Part shown: piece by piece, positions 3,836 to 12,757 of the stretch
Position numbering within the stretch: the stretch's first letter is position 1
How the letters are laid out: the number at the start of each line of letters is the position of its first letter
From: Bacteroidota bacterium
GTDB taxonomy: Bacteria; Bacteroidota; Bacteroidia; Flavobacteriales_E; Vicingaceae
Length of the DNA stretch: 60,319 nt
NCBI GenBank assembly: GCA_016183805.1
Contig: JACPDX010000055.1
Location: 1 to 60,319 of the forward strand
Direction: 5' to 3'
The notes under the pieces: model-generated
What the model saw: the letters and a program-made list of their open reading frames with translations, nothing else
What the model was told of the DNA's origin: nothing
Database searches by the model: none
Program-made: the position numbers and the translations under genes

Positions 3836-4516
3836 TTACGCACTTGGCTGTGGTAATTTATAATCAGGGTTTTTCTTAAAAAAAGAAATCAATGCTATTC
3901 CATCATTATATAAAAAGGCTTTTATATTTTGTAATTCTTTAAAGGCTGTACGATGACATGTTCTGAATTTTGTTTTATAACAAAAAGGGCAGAATGCAGG
4001 TCTGGAAGGATTATAATCTTTGATTATTAAATCAAACATTTTTAGTAGTTCCAAAGGATTTTTCGCCTTTAGTTTACTTTGATAAAATTCAATCCTTCCA
4101 AAAATTCCATGAGAGTATTCTCCATATAAGTAGTAGCCTTCTCTTTTTCTAAAAGTCTGATTAGCTAGATATGGTATAGCGAATCGTTTAATATAATCAA
4201 TAATGCTTAATCCATCTTTACACAATATTATTTCATTTGGCGTTACGTCAACACAACATGATTTGTCGGATTCATAAACGTGCCAATCTGCAATTTTTAA
4301 GAAAGAATCATCAGTTTCATATAATTTCGGGAATCTATATGGGTAATCTTTACTTCCTTTAATTTCTACTGTGTATGTATCGTAATGCTTTCCAGAAGCA
4401 TCAACAATATCTAATTGACCATGAAGGAATTGTTCTCCTTCATGGTCAATTATTTTTAATTTATTAAATATATATGGAACCGCCTTTATATCGTTTTCAA
4501 AACATTCGTTCTTCAT
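3836..4516 (-). CDS. CBASS-associated E2-like (UBC-fold) protein
   Basis: 226 aa. The core 'KDYPYRFPKLYET...' (56-68) then 'DWHVYESDKSCCVDV' (77-91) matches the prokaryotic E2 pattern in which the catalytic cysteine follows an 'HVYxD' turn; Cys87 or Cys88 would be that residue. Near the C-terminus CPFC (176-179) and CH (187-188) form a SEC-C-like metal-binding motif. E2-only enzymes of type II-short CBASS conjugate the CD-NTase C-terminus to targets and prime it. Its ATG overlaps the CD-NTase stop by one base (TAATG), implying coupled translation. No E1 or JAB peptidase is present, which fits type II-short. Activity is inferred. Confidence 0.75.
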   Translation of the reverse strand: MKNECFENDIKAVPYIFNKLKIIDHEGEQFLHGQLDIVDASGKHYDTYTVEIKGSKDYPYRFPKLYETDDSFLKIADWHVYESDKSCCVDVTPNEIILCKDGLSIIDYIKRFAIPYLANQTFRKREGYYLYGEYSHGIFGRIEFYQSKLKAKNPLELLKMFDLIIKDYNPSRPAFCPFCYKTKFRTCHRTAFKELQNIKAFLYNDGIALISFFKKNPDYKLPQPSA

Positions 4517-5514
4517 TATTCTGCATAAGGCTTTGTTGTTGGAGGAATAATAGTTGCTAAACCAGCAGATGTGCTAGAGATATCATCTTCATCATCACCC
4601 AACGGAAATCTTTCACTTAAATGTTTACGCCATAATTCAGTCGATTTACGAAAGTTTTTTTCTTGTAAGGCTTTTTTCGAATCATTGATAAAATCATCCA
4701 AGCACTTCATGAAATAATCCTTTTGAGTATAGTTTTTTAATAGATTTTCTCCTTTTGGAGTGGTAGGTCTTTTACAAACAAATTCAGCCAGTAATTTTGA
4801 TTGAATATTAATTAATGTTTCCTTTAGAGCAATATCATCTCGTCCGTCACGGTAAACGACATTTTCCGTAATTAAAATAGTCATTATTAAACCACTTGGC
4901 ATAGCCTTACTTTCGTTTAAGTATTCTCTGTTATCTTTCCATCCTTTCCCACTACGTACTAATCTTCTTAATTGAGGGTTAACATCTGCTTTTTCATTAA
5001 ACCATTCTGTAAAAGCTTTTGGGTCACTATCGATATAATTATCTCTTTTATGTGCTAATTCAGGTATAGCCCCTTTTTTATAATAAATAGGGTGGTCGAT
5101 ATTATGTCCATCTGCAAAAATAGTTCTAACACAAGTATTTTTATCAATAGGGTCAATATTCGTATGCCCTTTTACTGCTTCATAGATCCAGTTATGGTAA
5201 GTTGCAGGAGTTGGTCTATCTTCAATACTTTTATCCCCTTCGAAGTAAATGCCATCATCTACATCGTAATATAACTTTGATTTTTCTTCGTTATCTTCAA
5301 TAACTTTTCTTGGAATAGGATTAATGATTGTATCCATAGACATAGAGCCCTGACCATTAAATTTTGGTTGAGCCTCATTTGGTTTATTATCTTTAAACCA
5401 TTTTCTGATTTTATTTCTAAGTTCTTTACGAGAAACCTTTAATTTTTTTCTTCTTGCATCAGTTAATCTGATTGTATCATTAAAAGTTCCAAAATGTTCA
5501 TTACAATTTGCCAT
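4516..5514 (-). CDS. CD-NTase (cGAS/DncV-like cyclic nucleotide synthase) of CBASS
   Basis: 332 aa. The polymerase-beta-like signature is complete: 'GQGSMSMDTIINP' (54-66, Gly-Ser), 'DVDDGIYF' (84-91, metal-binding Asp84 and Asp86) and 'GHNIDHPIYY' (136-145, third Asp140). On phage sensing, such enzymes make cyclic oligonucleotides that activate an effector, here the membrane protein encoded just upstream (1-bp gap). The C-terminal 25 residues are flexible (acidic 'GDDEDDISST', then 'IIPPTTKPYAE'), as expected for a tail used by an E2. The final residue is Glu rather than Gly, which is odd for a conjugated tail. The product nucleotide cannot be told from sequence. Confidence 0.9.
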   Translation of the reverse strand: MANCNEHFGTFNDTIRLTDARRKKLKVSRKELRNKIRKWFKDNKPNEAQPKFNGQGSMSMDTIINPIPRKVIEDNEEKSKLYYDVDDGIYFEGDKSIEDRPTPATYHNWIYEAVKGHTNIDPIDKNTCVRTIFADGHNIDHPIYYKKGAIPELAHKRDNYIDSDPKAFTEWFNEKADVNPQLRRLVRSGKGWKDNREYLNESKAMPSGLIMTILITENVVYRDGRDDIALKETLINIQSKLLAEFVCKRPTTPKGENLLKNYTQKDYFMKCLDDFINDSKKALQEKNFRKSTELWRKHLSERFPLGDDEDDISSTSAGLATIIPPTTKPYAE

Positions 5515-5515
5515 A

Positions 5516-6139
5516 TTATTTTTCGTGTGTTAAATTTTTGTTTTTATAAGTTAAATTTATTTTCCCCTTAGTTCCAAAAGGCAACCTTTCAGTATAATAC
5601 TTTCCGGTTAGATATTTTTCACCATCCTTTTCTATTAGTTTTAATACTTCAGTACCATAATGAGGTGAAAAACCTAACTCAGAGTTTCCTTCATTTAAGT
5701 AATTATAGATTAAAGAAAATGTACCATCAGGTTCTTTTACTATACTAGCTTCTTGGCTAACAGATGCAGACGACATTTCACCATCTGTTTTACGCGTAAA
5801 AGAATTTACAACTACAGTTGAGCCATTTTGTTTTATAATTTTTATATGCTCTAGTGAGCCTGTAATAACCTCACACTTTTCATTTCGATATTCGAATCTC
5901 AAAGTCCCTTCATATCTTCCTGTAAAATCAGGAACAGTGTACATCCATGAACAAGGTTTAGTATTCCACAAATGACTATTTATTAGCCCGAATAAAAAAC
6001 CTAAAACAGCAAATACAGAAAAAGAAATTCCCCAATGGGTACTCACATATTTATTTACTGCAAATAAAGCGGCAGCAAAGATTACCACTATCACAATTAA
6101 GGCTTGGGCTTTTACATATCTAAAATTGAATTTTTCCAT
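5516..6139 (-). CDS. cap15: Cap15-like CBASS effector (2TM + beta-barrel)
   Basis: 207 aa. Two membrane helices (about 10-30 and 38-57) are followed by a beta-strand-rich cytoplasmic domain beginning 'PDFTGRYEGTLRFEY' (70-84). This is the arrangement of the SMODS-associated 2TM-beta (Cap15) effectors, which bind a cyclic dinucleotide in the barrel, oligomerise and disrupt the inner membrane. Length and layout match the family, and the neighbour is a CD-NTase. No signal peptide beyond TM1. Assignment rests on architecture and context; the ligand is unknown. Confidence 0.8.
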   Translation of the reverse strand: MEKFNFRYVKAQALIVIVVIFAAALFAVNKYVSTHWGISFSVFAVLGFLFGLINSHLWNTKPCSWMYTVPDFTGRYEGTLRFEYRNEKCEVITGSLEHIKIIKQNGSTVVVNSFTRKTDGEMSSASVSQEASIVKEPDGTFSLIYNYLNEGNSELGFSPHYGTEVLKLIEKDGEKYLTGKYYTERLPFGTKGKINLTYKNKNLTHEK

Positions 6140-6144
6140 TTGTT

Positions 6145-6582
6145 TTATTTTGATGAACCGATTCCAGTAATTAATAGAATAAGGCCTAGAAAAGATGTAA
6201 ACACAAATGCCTTTTCAACCTGTTTACTTTTAGGTCTAGCATACCTAATATCATTACAAAAACTCTCGCAATTGTAATTGATTAAATGATAAGGTTGACC
6301 TAATTTCAATAGAGCTTTTTGAACTACTAACTTCCTAGTGAAGTCATTTCCATGAAACTTCTCTATTCGAGTAACTTCAGATACAGAATGAAAGAAATCT
6401 TGAACTCTTGTTAATTTCACACCATTACCGATTACATTCTCACACATATAATGATTACCAAAATCATCATGTCCAAGATATAATGCATGGTGCTGCACTA
6501 ATTTTAAAGGAGTTTTTGGAACAACCACAGTATCTCCTGATTGCAATTTTAACTGGGTTACTAATTGTATGTCTCTTGTCAT
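6145..6582 (-). CDS. LRAT-like (NlpC/P60 superfamily) cysteine hydrolase with C-terminal membrane anchor
   Basis: 145 aa. 'GDTVVVP' (16-22), 'HHALYLG' (31-37) and 'NYNCESFCND' (102-111) match the H-box and NCExF box of LRAT/PLAAT-type thiol acyltransferase/phospholipase domains, with Cys105 as nucleophile and His31/32 and His44 as candidate partners. A hydrophobic helix (about 126-141) ends the protein, as in eukaryotic PLAAT tail anchors. It sits 5 bp before cap15 in the same transcript, so it is probably part of the CBASS locus. It is not one of the standard Cap proteins known to me. It may act on membrane lipids or thioester/acyl bonds; the substrate is unknown. Confidence 0.7.
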   Translation of the reverse strand: MTRDIQLVTQLKLQSGDTVVVPKTPLKLVQHHALYLGHDDFGNHYMCENVIGNGVKLTRVQDFFHSVSEVTRIEKFHGNDFTRKLVVQKALLKLGQPYHLINYNCESFCNDIRYARPKSKQVEKAFVFTSFLGLILLITGIGSSK

Positions 6583-6594
6583 ATAACGTCGCTC

Positions 6595-6816
6595 CTATCC
6601 TTTAATTGATTTTGGGTCGTTACCGTATGAGTTTTTCTCTCTTATCTTGCCATCTGTCCCATGTATGATAAGTTCGGATTGTTGATTCTGAGCAATAGAT
6701 TTTCCTATTTCAATTGCTTCTTTTTGTGTGCTGGTAATTTTTACTGCTTTTTCACTCCCTGCTGTTTTTACCGCCCAGCCGTTTTCACGTTTTGTAACAT
6801 GTACATTTTTTGCCAT
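6595..6816 (-). CDS. DUF2188 small protein, first gene of the CBASS operon
   Basis: 73 aa. 'KNVHVTKRENGWAVKTAG' at the N-terminus, a central 'TSTQKEAIEIGK', and 'IHGTDGKIREKNSYG' near the C-terminus are the hallmark order of DUF2188 (a small alpha/beta fold, often beside restriction or other defence genes). The function of the family is not known. It is separated by 12 bp from the LRAT-like gene and is likely first in the leftward transcript. A small hairpin TATGC-GAA-GCATA (6856-6868) lies in its leader region. It may be a regulator or immunity-type partner, but nothing in the sequence decides this. Confidence 0.75.
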   Translation of the reverse strand: MAKNVHVTKRENGWAVKTAGSEKAVKITSTQKEAIEIGKSIAQNQQSELIIHGTDGKIREKNSYGNDPKSIKG

Positions 6817-7230: not shown

Positions 7231-7275
7231 TATACGACAATAACTATTATATTTAATTATAATGTCGTATATTTG
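7231..7275 (+). promoter_or_regulatory. hipBA promoter/operator
   Basis: Inverted repeat TATACGACA (7231-7239) and TGTCGTATA (7263-7271), 23-bp spacer. The right arm overlaps a -7 box TATATTTG (7268-7275) that ends 4 bp before the ATG at 7280. This fits autorepression by HipB and an almost leaderless message. Confidence 0.6.
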
Positions 7276-7279
7276 TTAC

Positions 7280-7573
7280 ATGAAATACGATTTTTATAAC
7301 AACAATGAAATTCTGGAGCTGATAGGAAAGAAGCTCCAAGAATACCGAGTAAGTAAAAATATTTCACAAAAACAACTGGCAGAGATTACGGGAATAAGTA
7401 GGTCCAGAATTAGTGATATTGAAAATGGGTCGCCATCTTCTTTAGTGTCATTAATAGAAATCATGAGGGCATTAAAAATATTGGATAATATTGAACTCCT
7501 TATACCTTCTGTGGTTAAATCTCCAAGAGAAATTTTAAAAGAAACATTAAAAAAACGTAAAAGAGCTCGATAA
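7280..7573 (+). CDS. hipB: HipB-like XRE antitoxin/repressor
   Basis: 97 aa from the ATG at 7280 (MKYDFYNN). An in-frame ATG at 7262 would add six residues but lies inside the -7 box, so the downstream start is preferred. The HTH spans about residues 20-60 ('ISQKQLAEITGISRSRISDI'). The basic tail 'KKRKRAR' is typical of HipB proteins that contact DNA and toxin. HipB neutralises HipA and represses the operon. The stop overlaps the hipA start (TAATG), so the two are translationally coupled. Confidence 0.88.
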   Translation: MKYDFYNNNEILELIGKKLQEYRVSKNISQKQLAEITGISRSRISDIENGSPSSLVSLIEIMRALKILDNIELLIPSVVKSPREILKETLKKRKRAR

Positions 7574-8856
7574 TGGTGGTAAAGGTTAAGTTATGGGGGG
7601 ATTTAGTAGGATTGTGTTCTATTGATGAAAACAACAATTGTGCTTTTCAGTATGAGGATTCATTTATCAAAAAAGGTATTTGTCCGGCTCCAATACACAT
7701 GCCATTAACTCCTGAAGTATATCAATTCAATTCATTAAGCGAAGATACTTTTAAAGGACTACCTGGCATGTTGGCTGATTCATTACCCGATAAATGGGGT
7801 GACAGTGTATTAAACCAGTGGGCAGAAGTAAATGGAGTAAGGGACATTAATGCGGTTCAAAAATTATCTTATATTGGGAGTAGGGGGATGGGGGCTTTAG
7901 AATTTGAACCGGTTATCAATCCTAACAAAATGAATGAGTCCATAACATTAGATATTGCTGAGTTAGTTAAAGTGGCATCAGATGTTATCAATCACAGGAA
8001 AAATTTCAAAAGCTCTATTGAGGAAATAGAAAGTATTGTAAGTGTTTCCTCATCGGCAGGAGGAGCGAGGGCAAAAGCCGTTATTACCTTAAATGAAGAT
8101 ACCAATGAAGTTCGTTCGGGTCAAGTTGATGCTCCCGAAGGATTTAGTCATTGGTTGTTAAAGTTTGACGGTGTAACCAATAAAATATTGGGCGACCCGG
8201 AGGAATATGGTAAAATAGAATTTTGCTATCATAAAATGGCTAAAGATGCAGGAATAGAAATGACCAACTGTAAGCTATTAGAAGAAAACGGAAGATTTCA
8301 TTTTATGACCAAAAGATTTGACCGTGCTGGAAATGATAAACTTCACATGCAAACGCTATGTGCGATAGCACACATGGATTATAATAAACCTAGAACATAT
8401 AGTTATGAAGATGCATTTCGCATAATGAATGGTTTAAACCTAACTTATCATGATAAAGAACAATTATTTAGACGAGCAGCTTTTAATGTTTTTTCTTGTA
8501 ATAATGACGACCATACCAAGAACATCAGTTTTTTAATGAATAAAAGCGGAGAATGGCGGTTAAGTCCGGCTTATGATTTAGCATATTCTTATAATGCAAA
8601 TAGCCGGATGGTGAGTAGTCATCAAATGACAATAAATGGAAAATCAAAAGATATCTCAGTTGACGATCTTCAAACACTTGCCAAAAAAGTTGGAATTAAA
8701 AACAGCCAAACAATTTTATTAGAAGTAAAAAATGGGGTAGGGCACTGGAAAAAATATGCCGAAGAATTAAAAATTTCAAGGGAAAGAATAAATAAAATAG
8801 ATTCCAAAATACAAGAATCTTATATTAAAAGTAGGGGTAGGGGTATGGCAATGTAA
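7573..8856 (+). CDS. hipA: HipA-like serine/threonine kinase toxin
   Basis: 427 aa, full length for the family. The N-terminal subdomain includes 'FKGLPGMLADSLPDKWG' (60-76). The activation/P-loop segment is 'SSSAGGARAK' (159-168). The catalytic segment is 'CNNDDHTKN' (309-317) and the metal-binding segment 'SPAYDLAYS' (331-339). HipA kinases phosphorylate translation factors such as glutamyl-tRNA synthetase and induce dormancy; the actual target here is unknown. All kinase motifs look intact, so the toxin is probably active and dependent on the coupled antitoxin. It works as plasmid addiction or phage defence. Confidence 0.93.
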   Translation: MVVKVKLWGDLVGLCSIDENNNCAFQYEDSFIKKGICPAPIHMPLTPEVYQFNSLSEDTFKGLPGMLADSLPDKWGDSVLNQWAEVNGVRDINAVQKLSYIGSRGMGALEFEPVINPNKMNESITLDIAELVKVASDVINHRKNFKSSIEEIESIVSVSSSAGGARAKAVITLNEDTNEVRSGQVDAPEGFSHWLLKFDGVTNKILGDPEEYGKIEFCYHKMAKDAGIEMTNCKLLEENGRFHFMTKRFDRAGNDKLHMQTLCAIAHMDYNKPRTYSYEDAFRIMNGLNLTYHDKEQLFRRAAFNVFSCNNDDHTKNISFLMNKSGEWRLSPAYDLAYSYNANSRMVSSHQMTINGKSKDISVDDLQTLAKKVGIKNSQTILLEVKNGVGHWKKYAEELKISRERINKIDSKIQESYIKSRGRGMAM

Positions 8857-11506: not shown

Positions 11507-11893
11507 TTAGGCAATTAGTAATTCGTAAGGTATTCCAAGACCTTTATGAAGAGATTTAATCATTTTAAGGGTCAACTCTCTTTTCTTATTTAATACCTCA
11601 CTAACTAAGCTTCTGCTACCAAAATAAGAAATAAGGTCTTTGTTTTTTAATTGTTTTTCTTGCATAATATATTTAAGAGCCTCAATTGGGTCTGGGGTAC
11701 TTATGGGGTAATGTTGCTCTTCATATTTATTGATTAACATAACAAGTATTTCTGCTTGATCAGCTTCGGGTGTATTGGGAAGACAATCAAATACTTTTTC
11801 CAGTTCTACTAAAGCAGCTTCGTAATCAGCTTCTGATTTTAATGGCTTAATCAAGTTATTCATATTCGTTTCGTTTTTTGGTGCTAACAACAA
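11507..11893 (-). CDS. higA: HigA-like XRE antitoxin
   Basis: 128 aa. The N-terminal 'LKSEADYEAALVELEKVF' and the C-terminal HTH 'KQLKNKDLISYFGSRSLVSE' then 'LNKKRELTLKMIKSLHKGLG' are characteristic of the long HigA antitoxins paired with HigB mRNA interferases. It is one base pair downstream of higB, so it is in the same transcript with the toxin first. It probably represses the operon through the long palindrome at 12257-12291. It converges with the mob operon across a 115-bp stretch in which I see no gene. Confidence 0.88.
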   Translation of the reverse strand: MLLAPKNETNMNNLIKPLKSEADYEAALVELEKVFDCLPNTPEADQAEILVMLINKYEEQHYPISTPDPIEALKYIMQEKQLKNKDLISYFGSRSLVSEVLNKKRELTLKMIKSLHKGLGIPYELLIA

Positions 11894-11894
11894 T

Positions 11895-12191
11895 TTAAAT
11901 AGTGTTAGCGTCTATTTTATCATATTCAGCATGTGTCCCTATAAACTTTATCCATGCCCATTGCATATTAAAATTGAATTTTACAATTAATCGGTATTTA
12001 TTTCCTTTAATGTTAAAAATCATTCGGTTGTTACTAATAATATCAGCGGTTGAGTAATCTTTTTTTACTTCCGCCGGTGATATCCAAGTTCTTTTCATTG
12101 CAGTTTGATACCAGGTTAAAAGAGGCACTTCTGCATCAGCATGTTTGGTGTAAAACTCCACAAGAGTTTTACGGGAAACAATGTTCTTCAT
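11895..12191 (-). CDS. higB: HigB-like mRNA interferase toxin
   Basis: 98 aa. 'VSRKTLVEFYTKHADAEVPL', 'TWYQTAMKRTW' and 'NKYRLIVKFNFNMQWAWIKF' followed by 'GTHAEYDKID' are the conserved blocks of RelE-fold HigB toxins, which cleave mRNA on the ribosome. The terminal 'THAEYDKID' contains the usual catalytic His/Tyr. Length is normal. Toxin-before-antitoxin order and 1-bp spacing are typical for higBA and give a plasmid stabilisation module. Confidence 0.92.
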   Translation of the reverse strand: MKNIVSRKTLVEFYTKHADAEVPLLTWYQTAMKRTWISPAEVKKDYSTADIISNNRMIFNIKGNKYRLIVKFNFNMQWAWIKFIGTHAEYDKIDANTI

Positions 12192-12352: not shown

Positions 12353-12757
12353 TTATAAATCTACCCTGTAATCAGTAGCAAAATCAGAATTAAAAAAGCT
12401 TCTTTCATCAGGAGCGTATTCCATTGGGAAATCTTTTACTGCTTTTCGGATAATGTTTTTATAATCAACATTACTGTCAATATCAATGAAATAAACAAAG
12501 TCCTTTTGATTATATAATACAAGCTCTCTTAATGTGATAACTGTATTAAAATACCGTTTCAAGTTTTCACTTGAAACAAAAAATAATAACCATCTGTTTG
12601 ATTCCTTATCTTGATCGACCCAAAACATCAGGTAATCACTCCCATTATCAGAAACAAAATGAGAGAGTATAGGTCCTTCATGAGCTAATATATCACCTTT
12701 CTTTGTAAGGTTAAAAGGAAGATTTTTTATCCTAATGCCTTGTAAATTGTATTCCAT
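12353..12757 (-). CDS. Uncharacterised 134-aa protein, last gene of the phosphoesterase operon
   Basis: I do not recognise a defined family. The protein is soluble with alternating short strands and helices; notable segments are 'ILSHFVSDNGSDYLMFWVDQ' (about 30-49) and a C-terminal 'DERSFFNSDFATDY'. There is no signal peptide or membrane helix. It follows the phosphatase gene by 26 bp on the same strand, so it is likely co-transcribed. The 'SDYLMFWVD' turn resembles small sensor-like domains found next to defence genes, but this is only an impression. Confidence 0.65.
   Translation of the reverse strand: MEYNLQGIRIKNLPFNLTKKGDILAHEGPILSHFVSDNGSDYLMFWVDQDKESNRWLLFFVSSENLKRYFNTVITLRELVLYNQKDFVYFIDIDSNVDYKNIIRKAVKDFPMEYAPDERSFFNSDFATDYRVDL

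Follow-up and report, generated by a model that had tools for sequence, protein, structure and literature searches.

The locus studied here is a compact operon of five genes, all on the minus strand, within a window of 60,319 nt (the window being the whole stretch of DNA studied; coordinates and residue numbers below refer to it and to its LRAT protein). In operon order, the genes encode a DUF2188 protein, the LRAT protein, Cap15, a CD-NTase and an E2-like conjugase, with gaps of 12, 5, 1 and -1 nt (Table 1). The LRAT gene is the second of the five; the DUF2188 gene ends 12 nt upstream of it, and Cap15 starts 5 nt past its stop codon. Another DUF2188-LRAT pair was found in locus L088. The CD-NTase, Cap15 and E2 genes are separated by no more than 5 nt and form one operon, as expected of CBASS; by its gene content this is a type II CBASS of the E2-only kind, preceded by two extra genes. 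It shares the usual order Cap15, CD-NTase, E2 with short type II systems of this kind and differs from them in the DUF2188 and LRAT genes added ahead of Cap15.

Table 1. Features of the window and of the related loci compared with it.
Feature	Locus	Positions	Strand	Basis or remark
DUF2188 small protein (PADLOC candidate PDC-S16), first operon gene	window	6595..6816	minus	PF09954 2.5e-24; PDC-S16 2e-33
LRAT-family (permuted NlpC/P60-type) putative thiol lipase/acyltransferase, 145 aa	window	6145..6582	minus	Pfam LRAT, AlphaFold2 model, conservation
Codon of His31	window	6490-6492
Codon of Glu48	window	6439-6441
Codon of Asn49	window	6436-6438
Codon of Cys105	window	6268-6270
Cap15 membrane effector	window	5516..6139	minus	PF18153 E=2.7e-11; PADLOC 2TM effector 4.8e-68
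CD-NTase (CBASS cGAMP-synthase family)	window	4516..5514	minus	NF041078 (NCBIfam cGAS) 213 bits, cut-off 150; PADLOC cyclase 7.7e-118
E2-like conjugase, without E1 or JAB	window	3836..4516	minus	PADLOC E2 1.9e-56
HipBA-like pair (XRE regulator, HipA kinase)	window	7262-8856	plus	divergent from the CBASS operon
PD-Lambda-2 matches, components A and B	window	11895-12191 (A), 11507-11893 (B)	minus	adjacent
PD-T4-10_B, N-terminal third	window	12353-12757	minus	positions 3-129 of 353
LRAT, Cap15, CD-NTase, E2	L032 (JABFGJ010000003.1; also seen as L010)			LRAT-to-next gap 0 nt
LRAT, PycTM, PycC, E2	L053			LRAT-to-next gap 8 nt
LRAT, PycTM, PycC, E2	L125			LRAT-to-next gap 4 nt
LRAT, DnaJ-like, HNH-SAVED Cap5, CD-NTase, E2	L082			LRAT-to-next gap 418 nt
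PDC-S38, LRAT, Sa_NUDIX 2TM effector, CD-NTase, E2	L126			LRAT-to-next gap 4 nt
380-aa gene of unknown kind, LRAT, CD-NTase, TIR-STING; no E2	L119			LRAT-to-next gap 18 nt
HNH, front slot	L034	5893-6360
DUF2188, front slot	L042	6147-6377
PDC-S38-like, front slot	L039	6197-6370
59-aa membrane peptide, front slot	L041	6025-6204
59-aa membrane peptide, front slot	L043
Further small gene, front slot	L031	265-441
Helical protein, about 290 aa	L011	6885-7760
Helical protein, about 290 aa	L012	8366-9316
Helical protein, about 290 aa	L014	6751-7620
Helical protein, about 290 aa	L015	6996-7853
Helical protein, about 290 aa	L016	365-1240
Helical protein, about 290 aa	L080	7738-8619
Helical protein, about 290 aa	L081	6091-7005
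XRE/ImmA-IrrE/PIN locus without cyclase	L089	5200-7318		run of small genes
E2 gene split across two frames	L030	7999-8667		close CBASS relative

The gene at 6145-6582 is a real LRAT-family gene. Pfam LRAT (PF04970) matches residues 13-116 of its product with E=1.7e-10 and 41.7 bits, and since this score is well clear of the curated cut-off of 24.3, the motif is not there by chance. The sister families Peptidase_C92 and Peptidase_C97 match below threshold. The score for Peptidase_C97 (PPPDE/DeSI) is 15.1 bits against a cut-off of 29.2, which places the protein outside that family. Models of PADLOC, NCBIfam and PHROG gave no match to the protein, and among Pfam, NCBIfam and PADLOC receptor domains no second-messenger-binding domain was detected in it. 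A second LRAT gene was sought in the same genome and none was found. Outside the LRAT domain (13-116), the remainder of the protein is a terminal helix, where hydropathy peaks at 2.36 over 17 residues (125-141) and reaches 2.05 over 19. This C-terminal hydrophobic stretch is present in all seven LRAT copies from immune operons, as seen by hydropathy for the window, L032, L053 and L082 and read directly from the sequence for L119, L125 and L126.

An AlphaFold2 model, built on an alignment of 12 rows, has a mean pLDDT of 83.6 and a pTM of 0.75, with a C-terminal helix at residues 120-141. Among solved structures, the closest to the model, at Z 11.4-12.1, are human PLAAT3, 2 and 4 together with a subunit of Euglena complex I (8iuf). 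The three PLAAT proteins align at Z 11.4-11.9 (PLAAT3 at 11.9) over 95-99 residues with an rmsd of 2.3-2.9 Å, the helix of the model corresponding to their tail helix. Next come E. coli YiiX (2if6, 9.3), B. cereus 3kw0 (8.9) and the Aichivirus 2A protein (about 8), followed by the DeSI peptidase 2wp7 at 6.4 and unrelated rows at 4-5. In profile searches the LRAT subfamily recovered PLAAT2/3 at E 1e-9 to 1e-8 and PPPDE (DeSI) peptidases at 0.6. The PLAAT-type architecture with a hydrophobic C-terminal helix, originally predicted from the sequence, is thus borne out by the model and by hydropathy, and the predicted positions of His31, His32, His44 and Cys105 (NYN-Cys-ESF) agree exactly with the 145-aa translation. 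The permuted YiiX/YaeF enzymes (Peptidase_C92) share the permuted NlpC/P60 fold and a weak Pfam match; the protein nevertheless lies under the C92 cut-off and the LRAT model scores higher.

Besides the fold and the tail helix, the human PLAAT2/3/4 proteins (HRASLS phospholipase A/acyltransferases) share with the window protein the histidine in H-x-A-I/L-Y-x-G, the Asn-Cys-Glu box and the S-x-Q motif. Identity in the aligned core is 21-24%, and the window protein differs in being bacterial and encoded in an immune operon. Eukaryotic PLAAT members take part in organelle membrane remodelling and in virus-host biology.

We examined the catalytic residues in an alignment of 38 homologues drawn from Bacteroidota, phage contigs and one plasmid. 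His31, Tyr98, Asn104 and Cys105 are invariant (38/38), so that the first histidine and the N-C-[EQ] box of the LRAT family are both present, and Ser119 and Gln121 are kept in most. His44 is replaced by R, E, A, P or S in relatives or is absent. L125 (HYGLYVGQSKVIENHP) and L126 (HYGLYIGNGKVIDNHP), both from immune operons, can be aligned gaplessly with LRATs of phages and plasmids (such as HHGIYIGGGKVIHYSG) as well as with the PLAAT pattern known from PLAAT3, in which His35 is the second catalytic histidine. For the longer loop, L017 (HPCIYLGKDARGRDYVIHN) leads to an identical register. It follows from this register that the position of the second PLAAT histidine is occupied by Glu48 in the window protein. 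Glu or Asp stands there in all seven immune-operon copies, each time followed by Asn, whereas PLAAT and phage homologues have His; Asn49, directly after Glu48, is near-invariant.

The second catalytic histidine of PLAAT is thus replaced in the window protein, and the catalytic set likely consists of Cys105, His31 and Glu48, with Asn49, and would represent a modified form of the His-His-Cys set found in PLAAT. Asn49 may contribute to catalysis. Since an acidic residue takes the place of the third histidine, substrate and chemistry may differ from those of PLAAT. The original prediction of a Cys-His layout stands for the conserved Cys105-His31 pair; its third member, His44, was rejected, being unconserved while Glu48 takes the PLAAT position. 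Neither of the two results named beforehand as contradicting the prediction was observed, as Cys105 is maintained and the model has a PLAAT-like fold. A profile-profile alignment did set His44 against the phage histidine and was discounted, because the loop is gapped there and members of the subfamily do not share His44. Asn49, considered as the equivalent of the second histidine from strand symmetry, was dropped once the gapless short-loop sequences gave Glu48.

Relatives of the LRAT gene were sought in about 1,980 genome slots (overlaps included), and the partners encoded in the DNA around them were named with Pfam and PADLOC. A few per cent of Bacteroidota have such a gene; a sample of 395 genomes of the class, for example, contained 17 that do. 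Six further Bacteroidota operons of cyclic-nucleotide immunity carry the subfamily, with LRAT either first or after one small or unknown gene. Together with the window, five of these operons are CBASS (window, L032, L082, L119 and L126) and two are Pycsar (L053 and L125). The distance to the next gene is at most 18 nt in six of the seven cases, the window included with its 5 nt. In a tree of 35 proteins, the copies from such operons do not form one clade; three changes of the cyclic-nucleotide label are needed, at least two of them forced by well supported branches. LRAT was therefore recruited to such operons on more than one occasion, in company of unrelated effectors and cyclases. The gene is optional there: among 23 related CD-NTase loci only L032 has it, and L030, L031, L033 and L034 lack it although their CD-NTases are as near to that of the window as is the CD-NTase of L032.

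The immediate neighbour had been named Cap15 in the original prediction, correctly so in view of its PF18153 match. The special link to this membrane effector, also predicted, is not supported, for the same subfamily accompanies the Cap5 nuclease, the TIR-STING NADase, PycTM and a NUDIX-domain 2TM protein. LRAT accompanies CBASS and Pycsar generally and not Cap15 specifically. Company with nuclease and NADase effectors disfavours a role tied to Cap15 alone and leaves room for a regulatory function or for the acylation of proteins. The LRAT gene looks like a recurring and probably undescribed addition to cyclic-nucleotide immunity.

How might such an add-on work? We tentatively propose, as a reading that is possible if somewhat short of an even chance, that this optional 5' accessory gene encodes a tail-anchored, cytosol-facing Cys-His-Glu enzyme that serves as an auxiliary effector on inner-membrane phospholipids and weakens the membrane. 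The tail helix would anchor the enzyme in the inner membrane, facing the cytosol. Upon infection, the enzyme would remove or transfer phospholipid acyl chains through an acyl-thioester on Cys105, and the resulting lysolipids would weaken the membrane alongside the primary effector of the operon, helping to kill the cell. As no messenger-binding domain was seen, we infer infection or membrane damage as the trigger.

Such damage to the membrane by an enzyme is plausible and has published precedents. PG and PE are cleaved by Tox-Act1, a permuted NlpC/P60 toxin, via its cysteine (PMC12994826), and PLAAT3, once recruited to mitochondria, deforms and ruptures these organelles provided that Cys113 is intact, which its lipase-dead form does not do (PMC9338259). 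An always-on lipase should, on the other hand, be toxic, which speaks against the lipase effector reading, and LRAT need not be a membrane amplifier, because it also accompanies nuclease (Cap5) and TIR-STING effectors. In a broader version, which we consider rather unlikely, a PLAAT-like, membrane-anchored Cys-His-Glu lipid enzyme would form a general second arm of cyclic-nucleotide immunity, repeatedly recruited before CBASS and Pycsar operons whatever their effector and acting without messenger binding, for example upon membrane stress.

Relatives of the gene also occur outside cyclic-nucleotide operons, by themselves or in other settings. A separate LRAT clade sits after a conserved helical protein of about 290 aa in defence islands (once beside an Avs1-like gene), and other relatives lie beside an OLD-like ATPase or beside HNH genes. 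These occurrences, as well as the presence of LRAT in just one of the 23 related CD-NTase loci, would suit a self-contained defence or toxin gene, a hitch-hiker in the variable 5' slot of defence operons that acts apart from the cyclic-nucleotide pathway. We regard such a gene as unlikely in view of the short distance to the next operon gene and the repeated origin of the pairing. In addition, 6 of 25 ingroup rows (the window left out) are in cyclic-nucleotide position, which is not an unbiased rate, some sampled genomes being relatives of earlier matches. The probability of 6 or more of 25 is 8e-6 if 2% of genes in such islands are there by chance, the 2% being our own assumption.

Alternatively, the protein might be an acyltransferase or thioesterase directed to proteins, one that does not damage lipids but regulates signalling, for instance through acylation or de-acylation, at the membrane, of a phage protein, the cyclase or the effector. 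Occurrence with many effector types is what a common regulator would show, the front position is shared with other small variable genes (DUF2188, PDC-S38, HNH), and the acidic third residue is unlike PLAAT. Moreover, Bacteroides has a related enzyme of the permuted NlpC/P60 type that is reported to act as a lipoprotein N-acyltransferase (reference 68 of PMC12994826). We nevertheless find this unlikely: the effectors and cyclases are unrelated, so that no protein substrate common to them readily suggests itself, and an unsystematic look at the partner proteins revealed no conserved acceptor.

Six of the seven LRAT-bearing cyclic-nucleotide operons have an E2 gene without JAB. In addition, LRAT heads a Multi_ubiq/E2/ThiF-JAB/DUF6527 operon in L055 and divergently adjoins another in L120. 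Both observations, like the weak match to Peptidase_C97, would fit a deconjugating peptidase that replaces Cap3/JAB and cuts E2-made cyclase conjugates in the manner of the permuted papain-fold PPPDE/DeSI proteases. This role is made very improbable by L119, where LRAT accompanies a CD-NTase and TIR-STING without any E2, and by a fold and profile nearer to PLAAT than to DeSI (Z 11.9 against 6.4; E 1e-9 against 0.6); L055 and L120, besides, already encode a JAB-like domain. LRAT-fold proteins without a full triad do exist, picornavirus 2A among them, and 2A aligns to our model, but a non-catalytic membrane adaptor or sensor is the least probable reading of all, given that every aligned homologue retains Cys105 and His31.

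The proposed lipid-directed enzyme can be compared with two known kinds of lipid-attacking proteins. Tox-Act1 and TseH, permuted NlpC/P60 toxins of T6SS that target lipids, are likewise permuted papain-like Cys enzymes of bacterial conflict, and Cys-dependent phospholipase activity was shown for toxins of this type (PMC12994826). They are secreted antibacterial toxins of other clades, whereas the window protein has no secretion context and belongs to an operon of abortive-infection type. The patatin-like phospholipase CapV of CBASS would resemble it in damaging the membrane by phospholipid hydrolysis, if the LRAT protein acts as proposed. CapV, however, is a Ser-Asp patatin directly activated by the messenger (PMC10097602), while the window protein is a predicted thiol enzyme without a messenger-binding domain, additional to the primary effector.

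Among the open papers searched, none links LRAT to CBASS or Pycsar, although an earlier mention in the comparative literature may exist; a paper on a type III CRISPR locus mentions an adjoining LRAT-like hydrolase in passing (PMC12825302). CBASS, Pycsar and the LRAT family are each known, and their recurrent combination is new with respect to these papers and to the defence models. If the enzyme acts together with the operon, it would represent a second lipid-modifying effector or a regulator in cyclic-nucleotide immunity, missed by defence catalogues, as the lack of a PADLOC match for LRAT indicates, and would give the PLAAT fold a bacterial immune setting.

Phage records contained no relatives of the window LRAT, and IMG/VR queried with the window, L053 and A7 proteins returned none; more distant phage-borne LRATs were found only with a query of the helical-partner type. 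Plasmid searches gave distant LRATs only, none of them with CBASS. The helical protein itself belongs to no known family and may form with LRAT an undescribed two-gene module; in L016 it lies directly behind an Avs1-like gene of 1892 aa.

In related CBASS operons, the slot before Cap15 holds varied small genes (Table 1) and looks like an exchangeable accessory position. The small genes of L089 are a 61-aa membrane peptide, a 95-aa HNH-like gene, genes of 213 and 97 aa and a distant LRAT; the peptide resembles the one preceding Cap15 in L041 and L043. As this run occurs in a locus without cyclase, accessory genes seem to occur alone as well. The split of the E2 gene in L030 is due to a frameshift or to a sequencing error.

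The contig carries ParA, the HipBA-like pair and mobilisation genes and is therefore probably a mobile element. The XRE regulator of the HipBA-like pair weakly matches capH models. The PD-Lambda-2 matches mark a second defence locus on the contig, that of component B spanning only the N-terminal 118 of 402 positions. The protein with the PD-T4-10_B match may be either a shortened form or what is left of a longer one.
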